Source: a virus
Reading direction: 5' to 3' (one strand)
IMG/VR virus record: IMGVR_UViG_3300050191_000196
Coordinates: 1-44,111 of that record
DNA length: 44,111 nucleotides
Each line of letters opens with the position of its first letter. Position 1 is the first letter of the stretch. A model generated the notes under the pieces. That model was given only the letters and a program-made list of their open reading frames with translations, had not been told where the DNA came from and made no database searches. Both the position numbers and the translations under genes were made by a program. This document shows positions 7,079 through 44,111 of the stretch, piece by piece.

Positions 7079-7154
7079 GAGCTCGTAGCTCAGTTGGTAG
7101 AGCAACGCCCTTTTAAGGCGTGGGTCCTGGGTTCGAGTCCCAGCGGGCTCACCA
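7079..7154 (+). tRNA. tRNA-Lys(TTT)
   Basis: A full 76-nt cloverleaf: acceptor GAGCTCG pairs with CGGGCTC (one T-G wobble), D-stem GCTC/GAGC, anticodon stem ACGCC/GGCGT around loop CTTTTAA (anticodon TTT, lysine), T-stem CTGGG/CCCAG with TTCGAGT loop, discriminator A and an encoded CCA. It is intact, so any element inserted here has restored the gene. The integrase lies just 5' of it and the prophage begins 3' of it. Confidence 0.97.
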
Positions 7155-7316: not shown

Positions 7317-7931
7317 ATGCAGCCCACTTCTGCTTCAGCTTCGGTTCCCGTTCCCGCGCGTTACAACCCTCCTCCTCCTTCGGCCGCCTTCCTCGAGGCT
7401 CTCCAGTCGCACTGGGTCACGCGGTTGCGTCATTACGCGCGCCGCCTCGCTGAAAGGGCCATCGCGCAGCCGCTCTCGGGCCTCTCCGGCACCGGTCAGT
7501 GCACCGAATGCGGAGCGGCCTCGCGCAGCCACGGCGAGATTCGCCACTTCGACGGCTGCGCGGCCGGCCAGGTGCTCCACGCCCTCGACCGGCTGGCCGA
7601 ACCCGTCGTCGTTCACTCGGGCTCGGACCTTTCCGCGCTCGTCTTCGAAGCTCATGCGCTCGCGCTCTCGCAGATCATGCAGTACAGCCATCAGTCCATG
7701 CGGAGGGCTGTCTGTCAGGAGTGCTCGGGGCGGCTCGATGAATCGCTGATCATCGGTCACACCCGCGAATGCCGCGCCGGACGGGTGCTGCGGCGCCTCC
7801 GGACGCTGATGGCGCTGGCTGGGGAGCGCGGGTCCGATGCTTCCTTGTCGGGCGCGGATTTTGCCGCGGAGCCCGATTTTGCCGCGCGCGTCGAGCAGGT
7901 GCGCAGTGCCGCCCAGGGAGGTTCCCGATGA
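7317..7931 (+). CDS. phage early protein with two copies of a CCHC zinc-finger-like motif
   Basis: A 204-aa protein; ATG 7317 is preferred over an upstream ATG because it follows a purine-rich GAAAGAG and excludes a low-quality leader. The motif C-x2-C-x11-H-x3-C followed by AGxVLxxL occurs twice: CTECG...HFDGC near residues 59-78 and CQECS...HTREC near 125-144. The equal spacing says the protein arose by internal duplication of one zinc-binding unit plus helix. No enzyme domain is seen. It opens the phage early operon and its stop overlaps the ParB start as ATGA. Likely a DNA- or protein-binding accessory factor; the exact role is unknown. Confidence 0.75.
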   Translation: MQPTSASASVPVPARYNPPPPSAAFLEALQSHWVTRLRHYARRLAERAIAQPLSGLSGTGQCTECGAASRSHGEIRHFDGCAAGQVLHALDRLAEPVVVHSGSDLSALVFEAHALALSQIMQYSHQSMRRAVCQECSGRLDESLIIGHTRECRAGRVLRRLRTLMALAGERGSDASLSGADFAAEPDFAARVEQVRSAAQGGSR

Positions 7932-10213: not shown

Positions 10214-10519
10214 TTGGCGCAGGAAAAGCAGGCTAAGTTAAAGTATGTGATCGTTCGCACTTACTCAGCCGGCGTCTTTGCGGGTACTCTCGCATCGCGC
10301 GACGGCAAAGAAGTGGTGCTCACAGATGCGCGGCGGCTCTGGTACTGGGCCGGCGCGGCATCGCTCTCGCAGCTCGCAGTCGCGGGAACGTCCCGCCCGA
10401 AGGACTGCAGATTTCCGGTTGCCGTGCCCTCGGTCACGCTCACCGAAGCCATCGAGATCCTCGACGTTACCCCGGCGGCTGAGGACTCGATCAAGGCTGT
10501 GCCGGTATGGCAGAGCTGA
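10214..10519 (+). CDS. DUF6948 family phage protein
   Basis: A 101-aa protein starting at TTG, supported by the strong ribosome site AAGGAGGAGG a few bases upstream. The sequence fits the DUF6948 family found in phages and mobile elements: YVIVRTYSAGVFAGTLASRD near residues 11-30, then RRLWYWAGAASLSQLA (41-56) and LTEAIEILDVTPAAEDSI, ending VPVW. The family has no assigned biochemistry. Its last 13 bases overlap the start of the Gly-X repeat ORF, so the two are co-translated. Confidence 0.82.
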   Translation: MAQEKQAKLKYVIVRTYSAGVFAGTLASRDGKEVVLTDARRLWYWAGAASLSQLAVAGTSRPKDCRFPVAVPSVTLTEAIEILDVTPAAEDSIKAVPVWQS

Positions 10520-10809
10520 TCCGCGCCGGGTCCGGGTCCGGGGACGGGTACGGGGACGGGTACGGGGACGGGTCCGGGGACGGGTCCGGGTCCGGGTCCG
10601 GGGACGGGTCCGGGTCCGGGTACGGGGACGGGTCCGGGTACGGGTCCGGGTCCGGGTCCGGGTCCGGGTCCGGGTCCGGGTCCGGGTCCGGGTCCGGGGA
10701 CGGGGACGGGTACGGGTACGGGTCCGGGGACGGGTCCGGGGACGGGGACGGGGACGGGTACGGGTACGGGGACGGGGACGGGTCCGGGTACGGGTACGGG
10801 GAGGAATAG
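10507..10809 (+). CDS. Gly-Ser/Asp/Tyr dipeptide-repeat protein
   Basis: A 100-aa ORF: seven ordinary residues (MAELIRA), then 91 residues of strict Gly-X alternation where X is only Ser, Asp or Tyr, then EE and stop. Codons are almost fixed: GGG for Gly, TCC for Ser, GAC for Asp, TAC for Tyr. The start overlaps the DUF6948 gene. The reading frame stays open through 91 repeat codons and ends cleanly, and proteins of this low-complexity kind recur near DUF6948 genes in phages as far as I recall, so translation is plausible. It would be flexible, acidic and aromatic, with a phase-separating or adhesive character. The alternative is a pure DNA repeat that happens to be open. Confidence 0.55.
   Translation: MAELIRAGSGSGDGYGDGYGDGSGDGSGSGSGDGSGSGYGDGSGYGSGSGSGSGSGSGSGSGSGDGDGYGYGSGDGSGDGDGDGYGYGDGDGSGYGYGEE
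10528..10800. repeat. degenerate hexanucleotide tandem repeat GGG(T/G/T)(C/A)C
   Basis: 273 bp built from the hexamers GGGTCC, GGGGAC and GGGTAC, about 45 units in mixed order with no other variants seen. Runs of one unit (for example nine consecutive GGGTCC near 10639-10698) alternate with mixed parts. The G-tracts of three to four every six bases on the plus strand could also form G-quadruplexes. Length is likely variable by slippage. Confidence 0.95.
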
Positions 10810-10904
10810 CTTTGGCCGAAGAAGTCACCATCATCGGCTGAGCCCTGGGCGCTGACCCCGCTAACACGCTTTACTCCCTAAACGTTCGGGGAAGAGGTCT
10901 GTCT

Positions 10905-24999: not shown

Positions 25000-25239
25000 A
25001 TGAAGATCAGGATCCTGCAATCGATCGCGGGCCACGCGGAGCCTCGCTACGGCCTTGCTGATTTCTCTTTCCCGCCAGGCGCCGTCGTTGACGTCCAGGA
25101 GGACCTCGCGAAGGCCTGGATTGCCTCGAAAATCGCGCTGGCCGCGGACGGCCGCGACAAGCTGACTATGCCTGTTGAGGTCTACAGGCTTGAGCCGGAA
25201 AAGCCGGCGCAGGGCGACCTGCAGGTCACCGAGGCTTAG
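25000..25239 (+). CDS. small head-region protein
   Basis: A 79-aa protein with ribosome site AAGGGGGGG before ATG. A compact start (MKIRILQSIAGHAEPRYGLA, then FSFPPGAVVDVQEDLAKAWI) resembles small phage proteins between capsid and connector with an SH3-like GxVVDV segment. Many HK97-like phages have such a gene, sometimes annotated as a Rho-like N-terminal or head-fibre piece. No firm function. Confidence 0.65.
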   Translation: MKIRILQSIAGHAEPRYGLADFSFPPGAVVDVQEDLAKAWIASKIALAADGRDKLTMPVEVYRLEPEKPAQGDLQVTEA

Positions 25240-25362
25240 CGATGTCAATCACTGGATCATCGAGTCAGGCTGGGCGCCGCGTGCGCGGTTTTGGAAAAAT
25301 ACAGCGTCTATGCTTCTGCGCAATCAGAAGTTCAAAACAACGGAAGCGTTAGACAACTGGAT

Positions 25363-25560
25363 TCACGATGTGATGAAGATTGCTTGGGCCTGTGGTGGAC
25401 TCACGCCGATTTGCAAAGAGCGAGATTGTGGACCTGCTTCGCCTCGTGGATCGGAGTATTCGAGAATCAAAATCAAAAGCATCTCGCGATAGATCAGAGT
25501 CTCATATCCGGTCAGCGGACAAACGATAACGTTTCCGTCCTGGTCGAGTTCGAGCGGCAT
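25363..25560 (-). CDS. minus-strand moron gene inside the head module
   Basis: A 65-aa protein from ATG 25560 on the minus strand, with a strong ribosome site GGAGGT nine bases upstream. The end (ILEYSDPRGEAGPQSRSLQI, then GVSPPQAQAIF) looks like small phage proteins with a strand followed by a TPxQA-type helix; no function is known. It is the only minus-strand gene I support between 7.2 and 42.6 kb, and 25240-25600 is visibly less GC-rich than its neighbours. Both points mark a late-acquired moron. The plus-strand readings of 25240-25606 have no convincing gene. Confidence 0.6.
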   Translation of the reverse strand: MPLELDQDGNVIVCPLTGYETLIYREMLLILILEYSDPRGEAGPQSRSLQIGVSPPQAQAIFITS

Positions 25561-25606
25561 TGGGACTTACCTCCGCGCAACAGCCTAACAAACAGAGGAC
25601 TATCAG

Positions 25607-26506
25607 GTGGCGTTTCTTACTCTTGTTCAGCCGGTCCAGGAGCCGGTGTCGCTCCCGTGGATGAAGAACTATCTGCGCCTCGATGCGACCCTTACGGCCG
25701 ACGATGAGCTGATCAGTTCACTCATCAGGGCAGCGCGGGAGTGGGCTGAGAATTTCTGCGAGCGGGCCTTCGTTTTCCAGACAAAACGCCTGCTCATGGA
25801 CTTCTTTCCGGGCTATGTCGACTTCAAGCTGGCTGGGCAGCGGGTCAGCTCGCCCTTTGTTTCCGGCTCGAACGCGATTCTGGTGGGGATCCGTTATGCC
25901 ATCGCGCTGCCGTGGCCGCAGGTGCGCTCGATCGTCGAGTTTCTGTACCAGGATCAGAACGGAGCTTCGCAGTCGTTCACGGTTCTTAACAGCAACAGCG
26001 ATCCGACCGATGACGATCTCGATCCGAACTTCTACTGCATTCAGGATCTCGATTCGCAGCCGGCGCGGCTGATGCCGCTCTTCGGCCAGATGTGGCCCGT
26101 GGCGCGCGTCGTAGCCAACGCCGTCCAGGTCGACTACGTGACCGGCTACTGGGGCTCGATTCCGGTTTCGGTAGTGAATGGATCGGCCGAGCTGACGTCG
26201 AGCTTCATTTTTCTGCCGCGCGATGTGGGCGCGGCGATCGCCATTCCGGGAGCTGCGCCGGGGACGGCCGGCTCAGTTCTCAATACCACCATCGCGGCGG
26301 TGAACTCCGAGGGTGCCGCGACCCTCGCGGCGAATGCCGGGGCGACGATCGCGACTACGACGGACTTCGGCGTCTTGCCGCATTCGATCCGCTCCGCCAT
26401 CACGCTGCTGGTTTCGCATTGGTACGAAAACCGCGATCCGGATCAACAGGACATTCCTTTCGCGGTCAAGGCTTTGCTCTACCCCTACCGGGATTTGAGG
26501 CTCTGA
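25607..26506 (+). CDS. gp6-like head-tail connector with an inserted beta module
   Basis: A 299-aa protein from GTG 25607. The first 60 residues (EPVSLPWMKNYLRLDATLTA, then DDELISSLIRAAREWAENFC) and the end (RSAITLLVSHWYENRD) are typical of gp6-like connectors, normally about 190-230 aa. Residues about 195-255 hold an Ala/Thr-rich segment (LPRDVGAAIAIPGAAPGTAG, then LNTTIAAVNSEGAATLAANA) that resembles repeats from tail-spike start domains. It joins portal to head-closure protein. Confidence 0.85.
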   Translation: MAFLTLVQPVQEPVSLPWMKNYLRLDATLTADDELISSLIRAAREWAENFCERAFVFQTKRLLMDFFPGYVDFKLAGQRVSSPFVSGSNAILVGIRYAIALPWPQVRSIVEFLYQDQNGASQSFTVLNSNSDPTDDDLDPNFYCIQDLDSQPARLMPLFGQMWPVARVVANAVQVDYVTGYWGSIPVSVVNGSAELTSSFIFLPRDVGAAIAIPGAAPGTAGSVLNTTIAAVNSEGAATLAANAGATIATTTDFGVLPHSIRSAITLLVSHWYENRDPDQQDIPFAVKALLYPYRDLRL

Positions 26507-26510
26507 CGCC

Positions 26511-26888
26511 ATGCCGCCACCGAATGCGCGCGCTGCCGAGCGTTATCTCATCGTCGACGCCGGCGAGCTGCGGCATCCGATCACGATCAAGTCGCCGTCG
26601 TCGACGCCAGGTCCTTATGGCGCCTCGGTGACACCGTCCAGCTGGACGGAAGTGCGGCAGACATGGGCGGCGATCTACACCGCGGGCGGCAGGGAAACAT
26701 CGCAGGCTTCGCAGCTGGTCTCGGAAGTCTCGCACGTCGTAAAGGTGCGCTGGTCGCCAGCGGTGCTGAAGGCCGGCTACCAGGTGGCCTTCGGGTCACG
26801 TACCTTCACGGTGCTCTATATGGAAAACGTGCTCGAGCGCAACCGTGTGCTGCTGCTCTATTGCAAGGAAGTCGACGGGGCGCAGTAG
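26511..26888 (+). CDS. head closure protein (SPP1 gp16-like)
   Basis: A 125-aa protein with the head-tail adaptor pattern: GELRHPITIKSPSSTPGPYG (18-37), WTEVRQTWAAIYTAGGRETS (45-64) and HVVKVRWSPAVLKAGYQVAF (75-94), ending in VLLLYCKEV. The beta-barrel closes the DNA exit channel below the connector. Length and order are standard. Confidence 0.85.
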   Translation: MPPPNARAAERYLIVDAGELRHPITIKSPSSTPGPYGASVTPSSWTEVRQTWAAIYTAGGRETSQASQLVSEVSHVVKVRWSPAVLKAGYQVAFGSRTFTVLYMENVLERNRVLLLYCKEVDGAQ

Positions 26889-27305
26889 ATGGATATCGAT
26901 GCTGGCATCACTGCATTGCTGGCTGGAAACAGCGGCGTCAAGGCAAATCTGAAGTCAGGCGGCGAGGCCTCGATTTTTGACGGTGTCGTTCCCGAGGACG
27001 TCGCGGCGTACCCATGTCTCGCCTATCAGTGGGTTGGCGGCAGCAATGATCCGGGGCTGACCACGGCCGGGCCGCGGCGGTCGCGCCTGCAGGTTGATTG
27101 CTGGGGTCTCGATAAGGCGCAGGTGATCGCGCTCGCCAACGCGGTGGCTCATTTGCTCGACGGCTATAACGGCACGCTGTCGGACGGCACGAATGTACTT
27201 GCCTGCTGGATCATCAACCCGCCCGGCGTCGACTTCTTCAGCGGTGACTCGCGTTTCCGCCGCCGCATGCTGGAGTTTTACGTGCTTCACAACTTCACCC
27301 CGTAA
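26889..27305 (+). CDS. tail terminator/completion protein (DUF3168-like)
   Basis: A 138-aa protein directly after the closure gene with no gap. It has an N-terminal helix plus VPEDVAAYPCLAYQWVGGSN (34-53), SRLQVDCWGLDKAQVIALAN (65-84) and RRRMLEFYVLHN at the end, fitting gp17/DUF3168 proteins that cap the tail tube and join it to the head. Confidence 0.82.
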   Translation: MDIDAGITALLAGNSGVKANLKSGGEASIFDGVVPEDVAAYPCLAYQWVGGSNDPGLTTAGPRRSRLQVDCWGLDKAQVIALANAVAHLLDGYNGTLSDGTNVLACWIINPPGVDFFSGDSRFRRRMLEFYVLHNFTP

Positions 27306-27320
27306 AAGGAGACAACGCAC

Positions 27321-27764
27321 ATGACCTACACAAACACCCAGGCGCAGGCTGGCCGGGGAACGACTCTGTCGATTGGCACGGGGACGCCTGTGCCGATCGG
27401 CGAACTCGACGATGTTCCTCTCGACCTGCCGGAGTGGATGACGGACGACGCCACCAACTTCGAGTCGGGGCAGGACGAGGAATTCATCACCACCATTCGC
27501 AAATCGATGGAATTCACCGTCACCGGCAACCGCGTGAGCGCGGACGCCGGCCAGGTCGCAGTGCAGACCGCCTATGGGGCCGGCACGCTCTCATCCTTCA
27601 CGCTGCAGTTACTGAAGAATGCATCGCAGACGACGACGGGCGACAAGTACATCTTCAGCGCTCTCGTGCTCAGTCAGTCATTCAAGATCGAGACCACAAA
27701 GAAGATTACCTTTGCGATGAAGCTGAAGACGTCGGGACCGGTCACGTTTACGGCCGGCAGCTAA
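27321..27764 (+). CDS. major tail tube protein
   Basis: A 147-aa protein with ribosome site AAAGGAG. It starts with GRGTTLSIGTGTPVPIGELD (12-31) and has a core strand with SMEFTVTGNRVSAD and a late TKKITFAMKLKTSGPVTF, typical of siphovirus tail tube proteins with an Ig-free single domain. A strong terminator follows, as expected for a highly expressed structural gene. Confidence 0.87.
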   Translation: MTYTNTQAQAGRGTTLSIGTGTPVPIGELDDVPLDLPEWMTDDATNFESGQDEEFITTIRKSMEFTVTGNRVSADAGQVAVQTAYGAGTLSSFTLQLLKNASQTTTGDKYIFSALVLSQSFKIETTKKITFAMKLKTSGPVTFTAGS

Positions 27765-27802
27765 AGGGCATCTCTCTCCGGGGTGAAGTTAGCAACTGAC
27801 AA

Positions 27803-27830
27803 GGGGCCGGGCATCCGGCCCCGATCTTTT
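27803..27830 (+). terminator. rho-independent terminator after tail tube gene
   Basis: GGGGCCGG-GCAT-CCGGCCCC is an 8-bp perfect GC stem with a tetraloop, followed by GATCTTTT. It lies 38 bp past the tail tube stop and just before the ribosome site of the chaperone gene, so it would lower expression of downstream genes. Confidence 0.85.
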
Positions 27831-27844
27831 GGAGAAAATGTGGT

Positions 27845-28255
27845 ATGGCAAAAAAGAAGAGTAACTCGGCCGCGCGTGTGATCGCGGATGGTGTGGCGGA
27901 TACAACATTGCCGAAGACTCCGGTGACGATCGGCGGCAAGGTCTACAATCTCTGTTTCGACCTTGGAGCGTTGGCGGAAGCCGAGACGGCGATCAATGCA
28001 GAGCTGCTGAGACGCACGCCGCCGCAGCACTTGAATCTTCTGGTGGCATTGCCGGTGCAGGACCTGGCCAGCACGCGAGTCGCATTTGCGGCCGCTGTGC
28101 GCAAGTTTCATCCGAAACTTGGATTTGACGAGGCGATGGGAATGCTGACCCTTGAAAATGTGTACGATGCTCAGCTCGCTATTCGCGCAGCTTGGGATGC
28201 TTCGGCCGCGCCGCAGCAGGACCGGTCTCCGGACCCTCCGCAACCCGGGACATAA
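27845..28255 (+). CDS. tail assembly chaperone (G-like)
   Basis: A 136-aa protein following the tail tube gene. VTIGGKVYNLCFDLGALAEA (27-46) is the typical start of these chaperones. The C-terminus (APQQDRSPDPPQPG) is Pro/Gln-rich and disordered, where the ribosome shifts frame in most siphophages. It coats the tape measure during tail assembly. Confidence 0.82.
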   Translation: MAKKKSNSAARVIADGVADTTLPKTPVTIGGKVYNLCFDLGALAEAETAINAELLRRTPPQHLNLLVALPVQDLASTRVAFAAAVRKFHPKLGFDEAMGMLTLENVYDAQLAIRAAWDASAAPQQDRSPDPPQPGT

Positions 28256-28644
28256 ACCGGGAACTGACGTGGACCGGTTGCTGGGCGTTTGCGCGGATCC
28301 GGCTTGGACTCACTAAGGAGGAGTTTTTTAATCTCACCCCGGCGCTCTATTTGATGCTGTATCGGGAGTGGGAGCAGAAGCAGAGGGAAGCACGGACCAT
28401 GCTCGCGCTGATGAGGATGGATATTATCAACTTCAGCATGTGTCATCCGAAGAAGCCGGTGCAGTTAGGCGACTTATTGCCCGAGAGGGCGCGGGAATCG
28501 GCGAGGATGACGGTCTCCACGCGCGGGCCGGTGAAGATGACGGCGTGGCGGCGGAGGGAGGTGGCGAACGGCTGGCGCGCGTTCATGGGCAGCGGTTTGG
28601 CCGGCTATACGACAGTGGAAACGGCGGTGCCCGAAAAGTTGTAG
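28192..28644 (+). CDS. tail assembly chaperone extension (T-like), probably by -1 frameshift
   Basis: An overlapping ORF in the -1 frame relative to the chaperone gene. From about 28246 it encodes a domain with TWTGCWAFARIRLGLTKEEF, NLTPALYLMLYREWEQKQ and a charged helix, as in T-like extensions of lambda-type chaperones. The only start codon (TTG 28192) has no ribosome site, and the 64-bp overlap sits at the disordered end of G, so expression as a G-T fusion is likely. I could not find a perfect X-XXY-YYZ heptamer; ACCCGGG at 28242-28248 near the end of G is the nearest candidate. Confidence 0.7.
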   Translation: MGCFGRAAAGPVSGPSATRDINRELTWTGCWAFARIRLGLTKEEFFNLTPALYLMLYREWEQKQREARTMLALMRMDIINFSMCHPKKPVQLGDLLPERARESARMTVSTRGPVKMTAWRRREVANGWRAFMGSGLAGYTTVETAVPEKL

Positions 28645-28693
28645 TGCTCTCCTAATCCATCGTGCTATCCTGGCGGTTCCGGGGAGGTGGAAG

Positions 28694-28867
28694 ATGCCCG
28701 ACTTGTGGTTAGAGCAGCAGAATGAGGCGTTCGCACGGCGGGGATTAGCAAAGGAAGCTGTGCGTCGCCCGGTGACGTGGGGCGGCGTTTTCGGCGCCGT
28801 AATTCTGGGCAACGTGGCAACGGTCTTGATCGCGGCGGCGGTTTGGGAGCTGTTGCGGCTGATCTAG
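28694..28867 (+). CDS. 57-aa membrane protein before the gp10-like gene
   Basis: ATG 28694 follows a strong GGGGAGG ribosome site. The protein has an amphipathic start (MPDLWLEQQNEAFARRGLAK), then a membrane segment (WGGVFGAVILGNVATVLIAA) and ends LLRLI. It is too small to compare with families. Good initiation signals and clean hydrophobic profile support it. Confidence 0.6.
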   Translation: MPDLWLEQQNEAFARRGLAKEAVRRPVTWGGVFGAVILGNVATVLIAAAVWELLRLI

Positions 28868-28894
28868 CGGTGAAAAAGCAAAAAAGAGAAACAC

Positions 28895-28981
28895 ATGCGT
28901 AACATCATGAAACAACTGTTCGCTGTTCCGCTGTCTTCTGGTTTTCTCGCGGACAGCAGTAACCTTGAGTTCAAGGGTTGA
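28895..28981 (+). CDS. 28-codon small ORF before a terminator
   Basis: ATG 28895 with AAGAGA upstream encodes MRNIMKQLFAVPLSSGFLAD plus eight residues and ends 7 bp before a terminator hairpin. The promising ribosome site and position are the only support; it may be a leader peptide or noise. Confidence 0.3.
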   Translation: MRNIMKQLFAVPLSSGFLADSSNLEFKG

Positions 28982-28985
28982 GAGA

Positions 28986-29007
28986 AAGCCGCCTGCGGGC
29001 GGCTTTT
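28986..29007 (+). terminator. terminator hairpin T1, followed at once by a ribosome site
   Basis: AAGCCGCC-TGCG-GGCGGCTT then TTCTGTTGGAG. The trailing GGAG serves as ribosome site for the gene at 29026. Same design as the hairpins at 32052 and 32220. Confidence 0.75.
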
Positions 29008-29025
29008 CTGTTGGAGTCAAAGCGC

Positions 29026-29520
29026 ATGCCGATGAGCGCGAAGGTGACGGGTTTTCCGGAGCTGCAGGGAAAGGCGCGCCTCCTGCGCGAGGCCGTCCGC
29101 GATCGCATCGCCAAAGATGCGGTGAAAGCCGGTGCCGCTGTCATTCTGGAAGCGATGCTCGAAGGCGCACGGGTGGCAGCGACCGCGCCGACGCCGGAGA
29201 GCACGGCTGCGGCGGTCGGTGCGCTGCGCCATGGCATTCGGGCTACCTCGCCTCGCGTCGATAAGCTGGGCTTTGTCTCGTCACTGATTGGCGCCGCGAA
29301 GCGGGTCGCCTATCTTGCGCGCTGGATCGAATACGGCCATCGTCTCGTCAAGGGCGGCAAATCGCGCGTCGGCCTCAAAGGTAAATACGAGCCTGGCCGC
29401 CAGATCGGTGTGGTGCCGGCGTATCCGTTTTTGCGGCCGGCTTACGAAAGAACGGAGCGCGCATCGCTCGATGCTTTTGCTGAGACTGCGCGCACAGAGA
29501 TGCGGGAGGTTCTTCGCTGA
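29026..29520 (+). CDS. HK97 gp10-like minor protein, displaced into the tail module
   Basis: A 164-aa protein from ATG 29026 (GGAG nine bases upstream; ATG 29032 also possible). It has the HK97 gp10 family pattern: ELQGKARLLREAVRDRIAKD (11-30), AGAAVILEAMLEGA, an internal WIEYGHRLVKGG and AYPFLRPAYERTE near the C-terminus. Such proteins usually lie between closure and tail terminator genes; here it is between the tail chaperones and the tape measure. One base of its stop is shared with the next start. Confidence 0.8.
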   Translation: MPMSAKVTGFPELQGKARLLREAVRDRIAKDAVKAGAAVILEAMLEGARVAATAPTPESTAAAVGALRHGIRATSPRVDKLGFVSSLIGAAKRVAYLARWIEYGHRLVKGGKSRVGLKGKYEPGRQIGVVPAYPFLRPAYERTERASLDAFAETARTEMREVLR

Positions 29521-32003
29521 TGGGAAGCATGGGCACGCTCGGGACCGTTAACGCTCAGTTCGCGGCTGATACGAAGCAGTTCGACGCCAGTCTTTCCAGC
29601 TCGGAGGCCAGAATGGCGGCGGCTGCCAAGAAAGCGGAGCAGCTCGGCCAGGCTGTCACGCAGCTCGGGGCGGCATCCGATCGCGCGGCGACTGCGCAGG
29701 AGCGCGCTTCGGAGCGGGCGCGGCGCGCGTGGCAGCAGGAACTGATCCAGCAGGATCGCGCCATTCAGGCGGAGCAGGAAGCCGCGCGCGCGAAGGAACT
29801 GGCGGCGCTCAAAGCTGACATCCTCTCACGGTCGCTTGAGAAGCAGGCCGGCGCGCAGAATGCAGTCAATACCGCGGTAGAACATGGCGTGCCGCAATAC
29901 GCGGCCGCGAGCGCGGCGGTGCGAGCTCTCGAAGGCGGCATGAACAACAACGTGCGCGCCGCAGAACGGTTTCTCTCGACGACGCTAGGCCTCGGGCCTG
30001 CGTTGCAGGTGCTGTTTCCCGTCGCTGGCGGCCTCGCGTTCATGGACATCCTGATCCGGATGAGCACGAAGATTATGGAGATCGCCCAGAACTGGGAGGG
30101 AGTGAAGGATGCTGAGAAGGACGCGCTCAGCGCGCTCGAGAAGACGGATACGGAGGGTATCCGCCAGGCATCGGAGCATTCCGGGTTGATTCGCGAGCAG
30201 CAGATGGCGATGGTGGGGCTAAGCGTGCCGCGCGAAGGACGTGCCGCCGCGGAGCAGGCTGTATCGGCGCGCTTTGATATAGCGGATGCGAAAACGAAGC
30301 TCAGTGATCTGCAGTCGCAGATAGATTCGGGTAACGCTCAAATAAGAGCCCTCGATCTTCAGCGGCGATCGCAGCAGACGCAGTTGGTCACGAAATATGG
30401 TACCGCGCCCGGCCAGTTCGACCCAACGAAGGATCCCGTGTCAGTCTATGAGCCGACGAATGACGCAGATTGGGCGCGCGGGAAGATGGCAGAGATCGGC
30501 GATGCTATGGAGACGGCCTCGCGAGAGAAGCGAAATGTCCAGCAGCAGATCCTCACCCTGCAGGCACAGCAGCGATTGCAGCTGAAAGAGGCGCAGGAGG
30601 GAGCCGGCCGCGGCGAGCGGCGTGATGCCACGCAACAAATGGGCACCTGGCGTCAGCAGCTCGAAGCGCAGAAAGCCGGCCATACGATGACGCTTGACGA
30701 TGAGGCGGCTTACTGGCAGAAGCTCGCGGACAGCGTGAAGCGCGGGTCGGTGCTCTACAACTCCGCCCTGATGGAGGCAAACAAGGCTCGGACGGAAAGC
30801 CTCAAGCAATATCAGAGCGCATTTATCGCGAGCGTGCTCTCCGACGCGGAGGCGCGGCGTCAGGCGCAGGAACAAAGTCAGCGCGTCAGCGAGAATCTGC
30901 AGGAGAATTGGGACGCGGCCAACGCCCGCGATCGCGAGGAGGCGAAGGCGATCGAGGAGAGCGCATCCCGGGCCTTCGAGGCCGCCGAGCAGCAGAGGAA
31001 AACGGCCGATCGGCTGGCGGAGGAAACGATCAAGCTCCGCGAGGCCTCCGGACAGCTCTCCCGCGCCGGGGCAGCGCAGGCGCTGGCTACAATCCATCAG
31101 GAAAGTTTTGCCAGCTGGTCCGCGGCTGCCACGTCATTTTCGGCGCAGTTTCCCACCGCGGCGTTGCCGGGCGGCGCGCAGACGATGCGCGAGTATGAGA
31201 CGCAGGCCGCGCAGGATGAAGCCGCGCAGGAGGCAACGACGGCGCTGGGCGCCTTGCGCGAAACAACAGACAAGCTAACACAGAGCTTTCTCGATCTCCC
31301 GGCGCATCTGCAGCAAATGCTTGTCGCAACCGTCAACGGCTTCAACGGCGCGTTTTCGAGCGCGGTGATGGCTCCGGCGCGCAGCGGCCATGAATACCGG
31401 CAGGGGATTACCAGCGCGATGGGTGGCCAGTTCCGCACCGCCGGATCACGGGGTCTCGATGCAGCGCTGCAGATGGGCGAGGGTGGTCTGCTGAAGACGC
31501 TCGGTTTCGGCAACCCGAAATCGAAACCGGATGGTACGGCGGGCAATCCGCTCTGGGTCCGCATGGCGCAGGCGGCTGCGGGAGTTTCCGGATTATCAGG
31601 ACTGGGAAGCCTGTTTTCCGGCGTGGCGAGTGATGCCGGCGCAACGACACCAGGCAGCTCACTTGGCATGATCAACACGGCAATGTCGCTGGCGACAGAG
31701 ATTCCCATGTTCGCGTCCGGCGGTGCGATTCCGTCGAATATGCCGGCGATCGTGGGTGAGCGCGGGCCGGAGCTCTTCATGCCGACGTCGTCGGGCAGGA
31801 TCATTCCAAACGACCAGCTGGGCGGCGGCGGCAAGAGCGGGGACGTGCACTTTCATATCGACGCGCGCGGCGCGACCGATCCGGCTGCGGTGCAGTTCTC
31901 CATCGATCGCGCGCTGGCTAAATACGATCGTACGTTTCAGACGAAAGCTGTAGCCTCGATTCGAAATTACAATCGCGGCGTAACGGGTACCGCGAGGGTT
32001 TAA
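29520..32003 (+). CDS. tape measure protein
   Basis: An 827-aa protein, the second largest of the tail set. The first 140 residues and 220-560 are long helical coiled-coil stretches rich in Ala, Gln and Glu (SEARMAAAAKKAEQLGQAVT, for example). A hydrophobic segment near residues 158-185 (LGLGPALQVLFPVAGGLAFM) may insert in the membrane during DNA entry. Near the C-terminus GERGPELFMPTSSGRIIPND is the hallmark GE-x-GPEL motif. It sets tail length and guides the tube; about 0.15 nm per residue would give roughly 120 nm. Confidence 0.93.
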   Translation: MGSMGTLGTVNAQFAADTKQFDASLSSSEARMAAAAKKAEQLGQAVTQLGAASDRAATAQERASERARRAWQQELIQQDRAIQAEQEAARAKELAALKADILSRSLEKQAGAQNAVNTAVEHGVPQYAAASAAVRALEGGMNNNVRAAERFLSTTLGLGPALQVLFPVAGGLAFMDILIRMSTKIMEIAQNWEGVKDAEKDALSALEKTDTEGIRQASEHSGLIREQQMAMVGLSVPREGRAAAEQAVSARFDIADAKTKLSDLQSQIDSGNAQIRALDLQRRSQQTQLVTKYGTAPGQFDPTKDPVSVYEPTNDADWARGKMAEIGDAMETASREKRNVQQQILTLQAQQRLQLKEAQEGAGRGERRDATQQMGTWRQQLEAQKAGHTMTLDDEAAYWQKLADSVKRGSVLYNSALMEANKARTESLKQYQSAFIASVLSDAEARRQAQEQSQRVSENLQENWDAANARDREEAKAIEESASRAFEAAEQQRKTADRLAEETIKLREASGQLSRAGAAQALATIHQESFASWSAAATSFSAQFPTAALPGGAQTMREYETQAAQDEAAQEATTALGALRETTDKLTQSFLDLPAHLQQMLVATVNGFNGAFSSAVMAPARSGHEYRQGITSAMGGQFRTAGSRGLDAALQMGEGGLLKTLGFGNPKSKPDGTAGNPLWVRMAQAAAGVSGLSGLGSLFSGVASDAGATTPGSSLGMINTAMSLATEIPMFASGGAIPSNMPAIVGERGPELFMPTSSGRIIPNDQLGGGGKSGDVHFHIDARGATDPAAVQFSIDRALAKYDRTFQTKAVASIRNYNRGVTGTARV

Positions 32004-32047
32004 TCGGGCTCGGTCGGTTTAGGCGTGGAGAAGGCATCCGCAGCAGC

Positions 32048-32090
32048 ACCGAAGCTCCGCCACGGCGGGGCTTTTCTGTTGGGAGTTACT
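32048..32090 (+). terminator. terminator hairpin T2, 43-bp repeat copy 1
   Basis: AAGCTCCGCC (32052-32061), AC, GGCGGGGCTT, then TTCTGTTGGGAG. It is the first of two near-identical 43-bp copies (the other at 32216-32258, two differences). The 125 bp between copies contain a 26-codon reading at 32099-32179 (ITNPAAQEFFEKLANG...) that lacks ATG/GTG/TTG and would need ATC as start. Confidence 0.75.
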
Positions 32091-32215
32091 AACTCTGCAT
32101 CACGAACCCGGCGGCCCAGGAATTTTTCGAGAAGTTGGCGAACGGGTACGTATACCTCGATTTCACGCCTGCCGATTGAGACGGGGTGGGCGCCTAACTG
32201 CGTTATTGCACTTTA

Positions 32216-32258
32216 ACCGAAGCTCCGCCACGGCGGAGCTTTTCTGTTGGGAGCTACT
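32216..32258 (+). terminator. terminator hairpin T3, 43-bp repeat copy 2
   Basis: AAGCTCCGCC-AC-GGCGGAGCTT (perfect 10-bp arms, 32220-32241), then TTCTGTTGGGAG. The GGGAG is the ribosome site for ATG 32262. It differs from copy 1 at two positions only. Confidence 0.8.
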
Positions 32259-32261
32259 TCC

Positions 32262-32585
32262 ATGCGGCGTTTCGCCCTTGCTGCGCTGATGGCCACTGCG
32301 TTGTTCCTGCGCGGCTGCACGCCGATCCCCTGCTTTGCGGACGACGCTGCGAAACCCGCGCTGACGCCGGCGCAGGCGCTCGAGCGGCTGCGGGCGGACG
32401 ATGCCGGCGTCGTTGCCCGGCAAAAGGAAATGCAGGCGCTGATCTTCGAGTTTCGCTTCGCCGAATGCGAGCGGGACTGGCACCAGACGCCGCTCTGGAA
32501 GCGGCTTGCAAAGTATCACGCGAAGGATCCGTGCTGGGCGGTGGTTCGCCGCGCGGAGAAGGTTCCCAAAGGAGTTGCACCATGA
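32262..32585 (+). CDS. small exported protein in the tail region
   Basis: A 107-aa protein from ATG 32262, preceded by GGGAG from hairpin T3. Residues 1-26 are a signal peptide (MRRFALAALMATALFLRGC, then TPIPCFADDA; cleavage perhaps after FA). The rest is charged and helical (ALERLRADDAGVVARQKEMQ, then FRFAECERDW). No family recognised. A secreted protein between tape measure and tail fibre is unusual for a virion gene; it may act in the periplasm. Stop overlaps the next start. Confidence 0.65.
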   Translation: MRRFALAALMATALFLRGCTPIPCFADDAAKPALTPAQALERLRADDAGVVARQKEMQALIFEFRFAECERDWHQTPLWKRLAKYHAKDPCWAVVRRAEKVPKGVAP

Positions 32586-34102
32586 AAAAGGCCCTCCCCC
32601 TTCTTGCATTCGTCTTCATCCTGGCAGCCTCCTGCGGCGAGCGCACGTCGGCCGCAAAATCGTCACCTGTTGCGCCATCGGCGCTGACGGTGCCGGTCTC
32701 CGGATCGATACTCGGGCCCACCGCCATGTTCACCTTCACAGCTAACAGCAAGATCGAGCAGTATCAGCTCTGGATCGGGACGGCTTACCACACCGACAAC
32801 GTCGCCGAATTCAATTTCGGCAGCACAACGGCAGCGTCGATCTCGAAGACGGTCACCAATCTGCCGCAGAACGGCGCCACGCTCTATGTGCTGATCGGCT
32901 CGGATATCGGCGGGACCTGGCAGGAAACGTACTCGACCTTCACTGAAGGAACGCAGGCTCCGCCGGCGCCGACGATTCAGTCAGTCTCCTGCGCGTCCGC
33001 CGCGATCGCGAGCGGTGGCACCGAGGCCTGCGGGGTGACGCTGACGGCGGCGGCCACGGCAGCTTCGCTGGTCACGCTGAGCTCGAGCAGCGGCAACCTG
33101 ATCGTTCCGGCTTCGGTGTCGGTGGTCGCCGGCGTCCAGAATGTCGCGTTTACGGTGACGGCGGCTGCGGTGACCGCGGCCACGCCGGCAACGATCACGG
33201 CGCAGCTCAATGGCACGGCGACCTTCGCGCTGACCATTGAGGCGGCCGCAGCGCCGACGCTCACGCTCAGCTCCTCGAGCCTCGCGTTTGGCAGCGTCGC
33301 CGAAGGTGAGACGGCCGAAGGCGGCGTGACGCTCTCCTCGACCGGGACGTCCGCCGTCACGATTACCGGAATCACGGTGACGGGCAGCGGAGCGTTCAGC
33401 GTCGCAGGCGTCACGGCCGGATCGACGATGCCGCCGGGCGCGACTGCCTCGCTCGATGTGACGTTTGCACCCACGGCGACGGGAGCGGCGACGGGTTCGG
33501 TCGCGATCGCGAGCAACGCCGGGACGAAAACGGTGACGCTGAGCGGCACCGGAACGCCGCCTCCGGGAACGCTCGCCGCACTCAGTTGCGCAGCGGGCAC
33601 GTTTGTGGGTATGGGAGGCTCCGATACCTGCACGGTGGGCCTGACGGCCGCTGCGGGCGCTGGCGGCCTGGTTGTTGGGCTGTCGAGCAGCTCCGCCGCG
33701 GTCACCGTTCCCGTCTCCGTTACGGTCGCCGGCGGTGCGTCGACAGCGACCTTCACAGCGACGGCGTCGACGGTGACAACGCCGACAACGGTAACGCTGA
33801 CCGCGGCGGCCGGAGGCCGGACGCAGACGTTTGCGATCGGCCTGACGCCTCCATCGAGCTATCAGGTCGATCTCACCTGGGCCGCGCCATCGTCGTCGGC
33901 CGATCCGGTTGCCGGCTACATCGTCTACCGCGCCACCGGGACGGGCAACTACGAACCGCTTTTCACGACGCCGGTGACGGCGCTCGCTTTCAATGATCTG
34001 AACGTCAGCGCGGGGACGACCTACGACTACGAGGTCACCTCCGTCGACGCCGCGGGCAATGAAAGTGTGCCGTCGAGCGTCTACACGGCCGCCATCCCTT
34101 AA
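32582..34102 (+). CDS. predicted lipoprotein with choice-of-anchor-D and fibronectin III-like domains
   Basis: A 506-aa protein from ATG 32582 with ribosome site AAAGGAG. It begins with a lipoprotein signal (MKKALPLLAFVFILAASC; lipobox LAASC). Further domains: Ig-like Ser/Thr-rich modules near 135-220 and 370-440, an ASPM-SPD-2-Hydin domain near 225-325 (LTLSSSSLAFGSVAEGETAE) and a fibronectin III-like end (YQVDLTWAAPSSSADPVAGY onwards, 415-506). Such domains are common in Acidobacteria surface proteins. In a prophage it could modify the host surface or serve as tail decoration; export argues for the former. Confidence 0.75.
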   Translation: MKKALPLLAFVFILAASCGERTSAAKSSPVAPSALTVPVSGSILGPTAMFTFTANSKIEQYQLWIGTAYHTDNVAEFNFGSTTAASISKTVTNLPQNGATLYVLIGSDIGGTWQETYSTFTEGTQAPPAPTIQSVSCASAAIASGGTEACGVTLTAAATAASLVTLSSSSGNLIVPASVSVVAGVQNVAFTVTAAAVTAATPATITAQLNGTATFALTIEAAAAPTLTLSSSSLAFGSVAEGETAEGGVTLSSTGTSAVTITGITVTGSGAFSVAGVTAGSTMPPGATASLDVTFAPTATGAATGSVAIASNAGTKTVTLSGTGTPPPGTLAALSCAAGTFVGMGGSDTCTVGLTAAAGAGGLVVGLSSSSAAVTVPVSVTVAGGASTATFTATASTVTTPTTVTLTAAAGGRTQTFAIGLTPPSSYQVDLTWAAPSSSADPVAGYIVYRATGTGNYEPLFTTPVTALAFNDLNVSAGTTYDYEVTSVDAAGNESVPSSVYTAAIP

Positions 34103-34147
34103 CGGAAGCTCGAAACCCTTTTCGAAACCCTCAAGGAGACTCTCGCG

Positions 34148-37100
34148 ATGAAACATTTCTGGATCCGCCTTCTGGCGGCGCCGCTGCTGTTCTCGTCGGC
34201 TTTCGCGCAGACGGGCTGGGTCACGATGACCGGCGCGAACCTGACGGATGCGACCGGCGCGCCGATCTCAAATGGGACGGCGTGCTGGCAGGTGACGACG
34301 AACGCGGGGACGCCGATCGGCGTGCATGTGGGCGGGAGCTCCGGCGGACAGACGGCGACGCGGCCGCCCTGCGGCCCGGTGAACAACGGCGCGCTGGTGG
34401 GAGCCTGGCAACAGGCGGATCCTACAGCGGCCGGAACGAATCTGATTCCGGATCCCGTGATCACCGGTTTCACCTCGTGGACGAATCCCGGCGCGGCGTG
34501 GGAGATCGGGAGCGGCGCGAATCTCGGCACCTCGCCGGTGAATGGCCTGACCGCGCAGGCGGGCGCATCGGGAACGACGCAGACTTCGATCGCCGGACCG
34601 ATCACGGTGACGCCGGGTCAGGTGTACACGTTCAGCGGCTTCATCATTCTGAGCTCGGGCGGAGTCGGTTCGGGCGAGTGGGTGATCGGCGGTTCGGGGC
34701 TGACCACGATCTACGCTTCAGGAGGCCTGGCCAGCGGCCCGAACGGCACGGTGCGTCTCCAGTTCGTCGTACCGGCGGGTGTCACGCAGGTCTACGTCGG
34801 TGCCGACGTTGCCGCTGCTACGATTCCGAGCGGGCAGACGCTCAGCTTCGCGCGGCCGCTGCTGCAGGCTGGCGCGAGCCAGCTTCCGGACGTCAATCTG
34901 TCGACGCCGCAGAATGCCTGCATGCAGCTGACGGTCACCGACAACACTTCCGGCAATACGCTGCTGGGCGGCCCGGGTTCGGGCTATAGCTGCGTGCAGC
35001 CGCAGTACACGCTGAGCTCGCCGCCGATGAGCTGCGCCGCGGGGGTCTGCAATCTCGACAGCTATCTTCCCACCACGACACCGCAGGTCGCCCAGACCAC
35101 GGGGCCGACCGGGCCCGCCGGTCCCGGCATCAACTACGTCGGTAACTGGACGGCGAACACCGCCTACGTCGCCAACGATGTATATACCGAGAGCGGAACG
35201 AACTACGCGGTGCTGAGCGCCTACACCTCGGGCTCGACCTACGGGTCGACGGACACGGCGCATAACACGACGTTCACCATCACCGACGCCACGGCGCGCT
35301 CGGAGGCAAGCTCCGCGCAGGCGACCGCGAATGCAGCGCTGCCGCTCGCCGGCGGCACGATGAGCGGTCCTCTGAATGGGCCTTCCCTGAATCTGAGTGT
35401 GGTCTGCGCGAACACGTCTTCCGATGTGACCAACATCAACACAGCGCTTGCCAGCGCGCTCGCAACCAGCGCGCCGACGCACGTCTCTGTCTATGGCGTT
35501 ACCTGCGATCTCCCTTCGACTCTCGTTATCGGGAGCAACACCTGGCTGGATGTGTCTCCGACGACGACCATGACGGGGACCACGTATGGGGCACACCTGA
35601 TCGAGACGTACGCTTCCAATTACGGGGTGAATCGCAGCACGACGGATGGAGCATCCACTGCGTCCAGCTCTACGATCACGTCGGCAACGATCAATTGCAC
35701 CACCGCGGATGTCGGCCGCCCCTTCCGGTTGAGCACTGCCGGGCAGCCGGCAGAAAGCTACAGCGGGCTGACCGGCTACTGGCTGACGCCCGATCTATAC
35801 GGGCATGTTGTTTCCTGCAACAGCACCACCTCGTTCCGGTCGGACGTCCCCGCCTATGCGACAACCAGCGCGCAAACCCTCAAATTCTATAACTGGGACA
35901 CGAACATCAAGATCACGGGAGGCATCTGGTATCGCAGTTACGCGAACGCGGGGAACAACATCATGAACATGGTTCGCGTGAACGGCCTGTTGATTCAGGA
36001 CGCTGTCTTTAATTCCCCGTCGAACACCACCGGCAGCCTGGGCGGTCTCTACGCCATACAAATGGCGGATGCAAACCAGGTACGCGTGGATAAGGTCACC
36101 ATGCCCTTCGTTCTTTCCGATGGCGTCCATCTGGACGGTCCCGATGTGGATGTGTCCATCACGAACCTTGTGGCCAACACGGGGGACGACACAGTCGTGA
36201 TCACCACGAGGGACTGGGCCGGACCATCCGCCCTACTGGAAACCGGCGCGAATGAGATTTATGGAAGCGTGTATGGATGGCATCTGGACGGCATCCACGG
36301 TAGCTCCCGCACCTCGCTGGTCCGCTTCGGATCCACGCAGGGGCTATCCGTCAAGCACGTTTCCGCTCACGATATTTACGCCAGCTCGCCAAGCGGCGGA
36401 GTCATCACCGCAGACGATCCCTTTTTTGGGGGTGGTTTTACAGACGATATCGTGATCGACGGCGTGGGCGGTCAAATTACTTCTGTATCCCGCAACGAGA
36501 ACGTGTTCCAGAGTACGCAGACGAACGTCGGCGACATGGTGCTGAAGAACATCGATTTTTCGCAGGCCAACATTTCCTGCTGCAACGCGATCGTGGTAAT
36601 GGGAAACAGCCCCAACGCGAACGCCACTCTGAACAGCGTGATGGTCGACGGACTGAAGGGAACCCTCGTGAACGGGGCAGTTCAATCAGCCGCGGTCTAC
36701 GTATCGCAGAACGCTACGGTGAAGAATCTGACGGTCGCTAATGCCGACGTCACGATGAGCGGGTCCACCACCAACGCGCTCCCGTTCGTGGATGTAGAGA
36801 AGGATCCAACGGGGCTCGGCGTGACGAGGCTCTCTAACATACGGATTACGTGTGCGGATTCCACGACCGCCTACCCCATCGGTTGTTACGGCCTGGCTCT
36901 CAACACGAACCTCGTCAGCGGCGCTGCGTATCATGCGGTCTATCTCGACAATGTGAGGATGACGGCGACGGGCGGTAGTTCCATGGTGATGCTGTACGGC
37001 GAGCCGGCTCCCCTGAGTCTGCTGCAGGTTAACAACGTGGACCTTACGTTCGATGAAACTACGCAGTCGGAAGCAATCTGGCTTTACAATCCCGGCGCGT

Positions 37101-37795
37101 TGTCTCTCGGTCAGTTCAATAATTTCTCGCAGTATTCCGGGCGTGACTTCTTCTGGCCAGGGAGCCGCGGCACGTTTGGGCCGATTCAGTTCTCGAATCT
37201 AAGTGTCAATGGGACCTATATCTTTTGCGATTGCACCAGCGCAGCGGATATAACCTTCCACGGGGCGGTTGTCAACGCGAGCTACGTGGTCAATAACTAC
37301 ACCGGCTATGGCGGCAGCGGGTCGATCTACATCCGCGGGTCCGGGTTTTCGACAACCGGGACACCTCTCATCAACAACAGCTTCCCGCTGCACGTCATCA
37401 ATGAGGACTTCCCCGGCGATCTGTCGCTGGAGACGGCGCCGGCGGTGGGCGACAAGATATTCAACACGAACACCACGTACGGCCCGAACGCTCCGATGAT
37501 GTACGACGGATCGCACTGGCGGCCGATCGCGGGCGGATTTCACGCGACGACGGGCAGCATCGGCGGCTCCTCGGTGGCATCGGGCGCGTGCGCGACGGGC
37601 AGCGTGACCATCAACGGCGCGGCGGTGGGAATGAATGCATCGGCGGCTCCCGCCACGTCGACCACGCCGGGCGCATTCTTCACGGTCAGCGCGGGGCCGA
37701 TCACGACGGCGAACACGGTGCCCGTCAATGTCTGCAATCAGAGCGCGGGAGCCTTGACGCCGACCGCGGCTACCTACACGGTCACGGTGAACTGA
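34148..37795 (+). CDS. large beta-helix tail fibre/spike-like protein with a signal peptide
   Basis: A 1215-aa protein with ribosome site AAGGAGA. Residues 1-20 read as a Sec signal (MKHFWIRLLAAPLLFSSAFA). Then an N-terminal Ig-like part, a jelly-roll-like region (about 95-240), a short collagen-like TGPTGPAGPG (near 320), a Trp/Tyr module (WTANTAYVANDVYTESGTNY) and a long parallel beta-helix (about 415-1130; IKITGGIWYRSYANAGNNIM, ITNLVANTGDDTVVITTRD). The C-terminal 90 residues are Thr/Ala-rich strands. It would bind or degrade surface glycans; catalytic residues cannot be assigned. A signal peptide on a tail fibre is odd. Confidence 0.8.
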   Translation: MKHFWIRLLAAPLLFSSAFAQTGWVTMTGANLTDATGAPISNGTACWQVTTNAGTPIGVHVGGSSGGQTATRPPCGPVNNGALVGAWQQADPTAAGTNLIPDPVITGFTSWTNPGAAWEIGSGANLGTSPVNGLTAQAGASGTTQTSIAGPITVTPGQVYTFSGFIILSSGGVGSGEWVIGGSGLTTIYASGGLASGPNGTVRLQFVVPAGVTQVYVGADVAAATIPSGQTLSFARPLLQAGASQLPDVNLSTPQNACMQLTVTDNTSGNTLLGGPGSGYSCVQPQYTLSSPPMSCAAGVCNLDSYLPTTTPQVAQTTGPTGPAGPGINYVGNWTANTAYVANDVYTESGTNYAVLSAYTSGSTYGSTDTAHNTTFTITDATARSEASSAQATANAALPLAGGTMSGPLNGPSLNLSVVCANTSSDVTNINTALASALATSAPTHVSVYGVTCDLPSTLVIGSNTWLDVSPTTTMTGTTYGAHLIETYASNYGVNRSTTDGASTASSSTITSATINCTTADVGRPFRLSTAGQPAESYSGLTGYWLTPDLYGHVVSCNSTTSFRSDVPAYATTSAQTLKFYNWDTNIKITGGIWYRSYANAGNNIMNMVRVNGLLIQDAVFNSPSNTTGSLGGLYAIQMADANQVRVDKVTMPFVLSDGVHLDGPDVDVSITNLVANTGDDTVVITTRDWAGPSALLETGANEIYGSVYGWHLDGIHGSSRTSLVRFGSTQGLSVKHVSAHDIYASSPSGGVITADDPFFGGGFTDDIVIDGVGGQITSVSRNENVFQSTQTNVGDMVLKNIDFSQANISCCNAIVVMGNSPNANATLNSVMVDGLKGTLVNGAVQSAAVYVSQNATVKNLTVANADVTMSGSTTNALPFVDVEKDPTGLGVTRLSNIRITCADSTTAYPIGCYGLALNTNLVSGAAYHAVYLDNVRMTATGGSSMVMLYGEPAPLSLLQVNNVDLTFDETTQSEAIWLYNPGALSLGQFNNFSQYSGRDFFWPGSRGTFGPIQFSNLSVNGTYIFCDCTSAADITFHGAVVNASYVVNNYTGYGGSGSIYIRGSGFSTTGTPLINNSFPLHVINEDFPGDLSLETAPAVGDKIFNTNTTYGPNAPMMYDGSHWRPIAGGFHATTGSIGGSSVASGACATGSVTINGAAVGMNASAAPATSTTPGAFFTVSAGPITTANTVPVNVCNQSAGALTPTAATYTVTVN

Positions 37796-42953: not shown

Positions 42954-44111
42954 ATGGCGCGGAAGATGCTTGCCCGAGGCGCGGCGGATGGGTATACCCG
43001 AGAAGCTCATACGCCGGGGCACCGCGACTGCTCGGCCTGCGAAAGGGCCCGCATCGTGGAAACGACGCCGCTGACGCCTGCGCTGACTTTCGGCGCGGCC
43101 TTCGATCTGTGGATTGCGCGCCGGGTGATCGATCACGCCGGTCTGTGGTCGAATGCGCGCTATATAGCGCCGCGTACTGAGCGCGATCTCCGTCAGTACG
43201 CGCGGGCGGCGGAGAGATTTCTGGGCTTGCTGCGTCTGGAAGAAATTCATCCCGGGCATCTGCGCGAATACCAGCGGGCGCGGGCGGTCTGCGACAAAAG
43301 TGTCGCCGACTGGGAACAGCCGGCGGGTGCGAACCTGATCCGCAAGGAGGTGCAGTTGGTCCGGAGAGTGCTCTCGGCCGCTGGCGCCTGGACGCGGCAT
43401 CACGACGAAGCCTGGGAGCCGCTGCAGGGTGTGCATTCGGACGTGGGCCGGGCGATGACGCCGGAGGAGCAGCACCGGTTTCTGTATATGGCGCAGTCGC
43501 GCGAGGAGTGGCGCGTGGTGTACTGCTGGGCGCTGATCGCGCTCCAGACGACGGCCGCGACCAACGAGCTGCGGGCGCTCCGGATCGGCGATGTGTTTCT
43601 GACGCAGGGGACGATCCAGATTCGGTCGGAAGGCGCGAAGAACAAGTTTCGGGTTCGGACCATTCCGCTGCAGACGCCCGAAGTGGTCTGGGCGCTCGAG
43701 CAGCTGGTGGCGCGGGCGCACGCATTAGGGGCTTCGGGCCCGCACTGCTATCTGTTTCCGTTCCATCGCACGCAGAAGCAGTACGATCCGCTGCGTCCGA
43801 TGACGGTCTGGGGGATCCGGCGGAGCTGGGAAGCAGTCCGGTCGGCGGCGCATCTGGACTGGCTCAGGCCTTACGATCTGCGGCACACGGCGATCACGCG
43901 GATGGCGGAGGCCGGGGTGCCGATTCATGTCATCATGTCGTTTGCCGGTCATATGAGCCAGCGGATGCAGCTGCACTATACGAGCATCAGCATGGCGGCG
44001 AAGCGGGAGTGGGCGGGGCGGACATGGGCGGGGACGGCGCAGACGCCGAAGAAGCCGGCGGGAAGCGTGGGCCTCGGGCGTCGCTGGTCGGACCGGATGG
44101 GGATGGGGTGA
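42954..44111 (+). CDS. tyrosine recombinase, probable prophage integrase
   Basis: A 385-aa protein ending at the last base of the window. It has a Cys-containing start (HRDCSACERA, 23-32), SAM-like domain (about 45-155) and catalytic domain with R207 (NELRALR), K229/K231, Y307-x-x-R310 (PYDLRHT), H333 (AGHMSQ) and nucleophile Y342 (LHYTS). The first His of the HxxR motif is Tyr, a known variant in some tyrosine recombinase families. With the phage genes to the left and its place at the far end, it most likely integrates the prophage; attR should follow just after it. Confidence 0.88.
   Translation: MARKMLARGAADGYTREAHTPGHRDCSACERARIVETTPLTPALTFGAAFDLWIARRVIDHAGLWSNARYIAPRTERDLRQYARAAERFLGLLRLEEIHPGHLREYQRARAVCDKSVADWEQPAGANLIRKEVQLVRRVLSAAGAWTRHHDEAWEPLQGVHSDVGRAMTPEEQHRFLYMAQSREEWRVVYCWALIALQTTAATNELRALRIGDVFLTQGTIQIRSEGAKNKFRVRTIPLQTPEVVWALEQLVARAHALGASGPHCYLFPFHRTQKQYDPLRPMTVWGIRRSWEAVRSAAHLDWLRPYDLRHTAITRMAEAGVPIHVIMSFAGHMSQRMQLHYTSISMAAKREWAGRTWAGTAQTPKKPAGSVGLGRRWSDRMGMG

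Follow-up and report, generated by a model that had tools for sequence, protein, structure and literature searches.

Why should a siphovirus of an uncultured group place, between the genes of its virion operon, short hairpins that run directly into the ribosome site of the gene behind? The question is raised by the record IMGVR_UViG_3300050191_000196, a viral DNA of 44,111 bases that was analysed over its whole length and is called the window here. A siphovirus late region is present in the window, and among its late genes we identified those for the large terminase, portal, protease, capsid, connectors, tail tube, a chaperone-like protein, a tail-completion protein, tape measure and distal tail protein. 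A first-pass annotation made from the sequence had described three hairpins of one design, each fused to the ribosome site of the next gene, and had proposed that they isolate downstream genes and set their translation, and that two of them, as near-copies, mark a mobile or recombinogenic unit.

Three U-tailed hairpins in the virion operon

The three GC-rich hairpins lie on the coding strand around the tail-completion and tape-measure genes (Table 1), and all are followed by TTTTCTGTTGG(G)AG, with an interrupted U-tract (TTTTCTGT). Unit 1 leads into the tail-completion gene and unit 3 into a lipoprotein-like gene. Behind the SD-like site of unit 2, no ATG, GTG or TTG opens a plausible gene at the right distance; the description of hairpin units carrying the next gene's ribosome site thus holds for the hairpins and tails of all three, and for the gene start behind units 1 and 3 only.

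Table 1. Hairpin units, near-copies and adjoining reading frames in the window
Feature	Position	Strand	Remarks
Small membrane-type ORF, 57 aa	28694..28867	+	5' of unit 1
Unit 1 hairpin, GAAAGCCGCC-TGCG-GGCGGCTTTT	28984..29007	+	hairpin and U-tract rule, folding
Unit 1 U-tract TTTTCTGTT into SD GGAG (29013-29016)	29004..29016	+	start ATG 29026
Tail completion / Neck1-like gene (phrog_5)	29026..29520	+	3' of unit 1; family match
Tape-measure-like gene	29520..32003	+	between units 1 and 2; family match
43-bp near-copy A	32048..32090	+	41/43 identical to copy B
Unit 2 hairpin, AAGCTCCGC-CACG-GCGGGGCTT, one G-U pair	32052..32073	+	folding
Unit 2 U-tract and orphan SD-like GGGAG	32072..32085	+	without start codon behind
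Relic reading frame, 26 codons, without start codon	32099..32179	+	resembles C-terminus of 94-aa post-tape-measure gene in L154; weak
43-bp near-copy B	32216..32258	+	41/43 identical to copy A
Unit 3 hairpin, GAAGCTCCGCC-ACGG-CGGAGCTTT region	32219..32242	+	folding
Unit 3 U-tract and SD GGGAG (32249-32253)	32240..32253	+	start ATG 32262
Lipoprotein-like gene, 107 aa	32262..32585	+	3' of unit 3; without family match

Allowing up to 3 mismatches, CTTTTCTGTTGGGAG occurs at three sites in the window, against a mean of 0.44 in 100 shuffles, none of which reached three. When one stem and U-tract rule was applied to the whole 44 kb, the U-tailed hairpins of the coding strand were exactly units 1-3, and the opposite strand yielded two, one of them unit 1 read backwards. 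The folding energies of units 2 and 3 are clearly better than those of shuffled sequences (z -3.7 and -4.0), and that of unit 1 is not (z -1.2). A generic terminator scanner missed all three, and its 9 terminator-like sites in 25000-36000 amount to no excess over the 8.2 expected. A terminator score of the d'Aubenton Carafa form is positive for all three units (7.8, 13.4 and 14.5), the T-phi terminator of T7 scoring 11.6. The case for the units is carried by their relatives more than by single-sequence energy.

Recurrence of the layout in related phages

Relatives found through alignments of the distal-tail and tail-tube proteins, designated here by L numbers, share the architecture of the window. 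A query with the tape-measure protein alone yielded no relatives, the distal-tail alignment yielded none in bacterial genomes, and a distant nucleotide search gave no match in named phages. In L024, whose tail tube is 80% identical, AAGCCGCCTTTCGGGGCGGCTTTCTTATTGGAGG stands before the tail-completion gene and AACAGCTCCGCTCACCGCGGGGCTGTTCTTTTGGGGGAG...ATG after the tape-measure gene. L026 has units at both junctions, but its tail-completion gene lies 5' of the first unit and its tape-measure gene follows 3'; L046 carries one unit before the tail-completion gene and another before the chaperone gene, behind an extra gene. An extra gene likewise precedes the unit of L028, the more distant L020 has one unit, before the tail-completion gene, and L027 has a unit at neither junction. 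The ORF just 5' of unit 1 matches ORFs in the same place in L110, L030, L128, L026 and L039 (E 0.001-0.4). As judged from these loci, the sequences of the units vary while their layout is kept; gene content beside the units differs as well, which would be expected at operon seams anyway.

At the same late-operon junctions the units of relatives often take the form GCCGCC-loop-GGCGGC-TTTTCTATTGGAG-N4-9-ATG, the tail TTTTCTATTGGAG being the common one in the clade, and so compact a consensus of hairpin, U-tract, SD and start could serve for finding operon seams in metagenomic phages. A search with the core motif GGCGGCTTTTCTRTTGGAG gave 35 matches in 34 viral contigs, every one of them followed, 4-9 nt on, by an ATG that opens an ORF; under the stem rule applied, pairing is complete in 30 of the 35, the other five sharing one sequence, and the reversed motif pattern had no match in the same viral collection. 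Bacterial and archaeal genomes totalling 257 billion bases contained 13 matches to the core motif, in 12 contigs. One of these matches is unit-like, in an Acidobacteria MAG contig (L163), where the unit precedes a tape-measure-like gene (24% identity over 434 aa); we treat this contig as a lead only toward the host.

The exact tail GCTTTTCTGTTGGGAG was found in 17 viral contigs. On folding, a GC hairpin clearly precedes it in L006 and in L009/L012/L015, which have one sequence in common; the case of L004 is uncertain, and the remaining 12 contigs seem to match by chance. Because few of these contigs carry the tail behind a GC hairpin, the variant of the window is a rare one. In a Clostridia MAG (L159, 3543-3587) both strands carry the tail motif about a single hairpin, and the site is a perfect large palindrome beside an apparent tRNA gene end.

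Strand, spacing and position of the units

Hairpins were counted over 103 homology-fetched loci and the window, near-duplicates being collapsed, and were scored for an SD-led ORF start 14-28 nt behind the stem. Such a start lies behind 32 of the 69 coding-strand U-tailed hairpins, as against 39/1048 hairpins without a U-tract (Fisher p 2e-23, a value that overstates independence, the loci being related by descent), 1/31 U-tailed hairpins of the opposite strand and 1019/31200 random coding-strand positions. The recurrent design of hairpin, U-tract, ribosome site and start, which the absence of further copies would have called into question, is therefore upheld and is strand-specific in the related phages. 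As for occurrence outside them, a U-tailed hairpin was followed by a start in 1 of 11 cases in 17 unrelated viral contigs and in 1 of 12 in 12 bacterial contigs, controls whose size does not allow the conclusion that the layout is less frequent in other phages.

The junction behind the tail-tube gene could be followed for at least 2.5 kb in 55 of 78 tail-tube loci, the other 23 being too short and some of the 55 being near-identical contigs. A fused unit is present there in 18, a U-tailed hairpin outside the rule in 13 and neither in 24; on the opposite strand of the same stretches a fused unit appears in 1/55.

The homology-fetched loci and the motif search together provided 53 non-redundant units, and in all 53 the start lies 16-24 nt after the stem, although a range of 14-28 nt was searched. 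The terminator score is positive in 48. Recognisable genes follow 36 of them (tail completion 14, chaperone 8, tape measure 7, fibre 4, distal tail 2 and lipoprotein 1, the last being the window's own case), and 17 are unclassified. At fully packed junctions about 19-27 nt separate the upstream stop from the stem, a distance that is unreliable where the longest ORF ending nearby is not the real gene. An asymmetric placement that would tie the unit to the downstream gene alone was considered and dropped; both sides are short at many junctions, and minimal packing suffices. In the 12 nt before GGAG, T content is 0.45 at 23 starts behind hairpins and 0.21 at 309 other starts. Without a U-tract, hairpins show hardly any enrichment before starts, and U-rich sequence is lacking before other GGAG-led starts, so that the U-tract would seem to belong to the function.

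Comparison with known systems

The temperate Escherichia phage HK97 has a similar arrangement. Within the first 20 kb its record (AF069529) annotates, as putative, seven coding-strand terminators, the ends of which lie 5-13 nt upstream of the starts of late genes (protease, gp6, major tail, chaperone, tape measure, I and J). The chaperone and tape-measure junctions are unit positions in the window's clade as well, but the HK97 sequences are unrelated, their tails are mostly longer, pure T runs, and the terminator before the chaperone gene has no T-tract. In T7 (V01146), T-phi consists of a hairpin, TTTTTT, GCTGA, AAGGAGG, a spacer and ATG, with termination at 24210 and the gene 11 start at 24228; it stands between capsid and tail genes, as the window's units stand between virion genes. 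T-phi is described as inefficient at stopping T7 RNA polymerase (PMC3276506). It acts on the phage's own polymerase, however, and T7 has one such unit where the window has three. In phiKMV 18 nt separate the end of an annotated terminator from the start of gp33, and AGGAG lies within them. In LUZ100 the capsid gene is followed directly by what appears to be a strong terminator, and RNA sequencing showed sequential read-through over the late termination sites (PMC10134795); both phiKMV and LUZ100 are podoviruses that have their own RNA polymerase and belong to a different host group.

The layout of the units is thus already known from HK97, T7 T-phi and phiKMV, and, going by the sequences compared, what the window's clade adds is a shared consensus. 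These observations extend to a new siphovirus group an arrangement known from the records of those phages. Among the open-licence PMC papers that literature searches brought up, no title or abstract opening names the unit of this clade, a result that leaves room for an earlier description.

A proposed role in late transcription

An intrinsic terminator fits the anatomy of the units, since its release point would fall just before the SD. We give a probability of roughly 0.7 to the reading that the units are internal, leaky intrinsic terminators of the late operon, the release point of which abuts the next SD. Each would then place stop and start signals in one compact gap inside the virion operon: some polymerases would release their transcript at the unit, and in the transcripts of those reading through the next ribosome site would follow the hairpin by about 8-10 nt. 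The amount of mRNA would then probably fall in steps, from the tail-tube region to the chaperone, tail-completion and tape-measure genes and from these to the fibre genes. Such a fall would offer a simple, testable explanation of how these uncultured viruses may balance the tail tube, chaperone, tape measure and fibre proteins made from one operon, and the isolation of genes and the setting of downstream translation, as proposed in the first-pass annotation, are plausible as a putative role of the units.

Leakiness is suggested by the lack of promoter-like sites in 25000-36000, where a scan for sites of the sigma-70 type, which may not be the host's, found none. One long late transcript is likely for this reason, and the downstream genes probably depend on read-through or antitermination. 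Because strong termination without a nearby promoter would starve these genes, the terminators would have to be leaky or antiterminated.

The E. coli terminator tR2 is described as nearly silenced close behind a stop codon, variable near 18 bp and maximal beyond about 30 bp (PMC4824070). By analogy, the terminators of the window's clade may be partly suppressed by trailing ribosomes. It is a speculative and unlikely extension of this analogy that the unit is a translation-coupled read-through gate, in which the short stop-to-stem gap would let the trailing ribosome partly silence the terminator and the clade-specific consensus would be tuned for the gate; the dosage of each tail gene would then depend on translation of the gene before it.

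Termination could also be reserved for the prophage, the terminators being silenced in lytic growth by phage antitermination and acting mainly to insulate virion genes from stray host transcription. The window virus is probably temperate, because its record contains two integrase genes; a temperate life, its occurrence in HK97 together with the same layout, and the likelihood of a single long late transcript all favour this account. We nevertheless consider it improbable: no antiterminator family was recognised among the proteins scanned, which represent part of the ORFs and among which such proteins are easily missed, and the terminators favour junctions between virion genes, a preference that suits dosage control.

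Alternatively, the hairpins might act after transcription, shielding mRNA ends or insulating the ribosome site from upstream structure or ribosomes, with the U-rich stretch as a ribosome-binding enhancer and termination incidental. The footprint of an initiating ribosome roughly sets the nearest position that a hairpin can occupy, and the uniform spacing of the 53 units places their stems close to this position; U-rich bases directly 5' of the SD would also agree with such a role. It is made distinctly improbable by the hairpins without a U-tract, which precede starts hardly more often than random positions do, and by the ordinary base composition before other GGAG-led starts, both of which point to the combination of U-tract and hairpin that a terminator requires.

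A local duplication in the window

Two of the units are 43-bp near-copies, as had been claimed. Of their 43 bases 41 are identical, and the flanks bear no relation to each other (7/30 and 6/30 bases match); because the match ends with the copies, exactly one unit's length appears to have been copied. The relic reading frame enclosed by the pair matches the L154 gene weakly in pairwise comparison (E 0.62 over 23 residues), with agreement in position and motif; the 94-aa protein of L154 itself matches phrog_6978, a phrog of unknown function, and a hairpin with TCTTTTTTGGGGGG, its pairing judged by eye, precedes the fibre gene of that locus. Behind unit 3 the window has two genes more than L024 and L026, in which the lipoprotein-like and Ig-like genes are absent between the tape-measure and fibre genes; extra genes at a late-operon seam that relatives lack are one trait of a phage moron, an inserted gene that brings a promoter and a terminator of its own, although 25000-36000 yielded no sigma-70-like site and the host's promoters may be of another type. 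From these sequences we infer that the pair probably arose by local duplication of one unit around a small gene that has since decayed, accompanied by gene turnover.

That the units in general are recombination seams, or a mobile repeat that moves genes into and out of the operon, is very unlikely indeed: the near-copies around a gene relic, the two extra genes of the window, the single ones next to units in L028 and L046, and the changed place of the tail-completion gene relative to the unit in L026 would agree with it, but stems and tails differ between the units of one phage (L039, L061 and L128), the near-identical pair was seen in this window only, and the dispersed near-identical copies of a short REP- or MITE-like repeat were not found in bacterial genomes, where a single core-motif match is unit-like, so that the mobile unit of the first-pass annotation was not borne out.

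Several other features were recorded in the window and in a relative. The two integrase genes are different from each other; that at 5883-7064 directly adjoins a tRNA-Lys gene (7079-7154), and that at 42954-44111 runs off the right end. The gene at 7769-9643 encodes a protein of 624 aa in which a ParB N-terminal domain and a ParB HTH domain were recognised. In the relative L020, behind the tape-measure gene (9152-9186), a long palindrome, TGTTCCACGTGGCAC-GGTTT-GTGTCACGTGGAACA, occupies the place of a U-tailed hairpin, and its halves resemble the bacterial parS (ParB) site. At 10466-10860 a reading frame of the window contains an array of an approximately 12-nt repeat, with 22 overlapping copies in register. 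Finally, the N-terminal part of the window's 1215-aa fibre-like protein (34148-37795) has its matches in L028, the nearest relative, in two distinct genes that neighbour each other (2996-3238 and 4560-5483), a split that suggests a duplication or insertion affecting the fibre gene.
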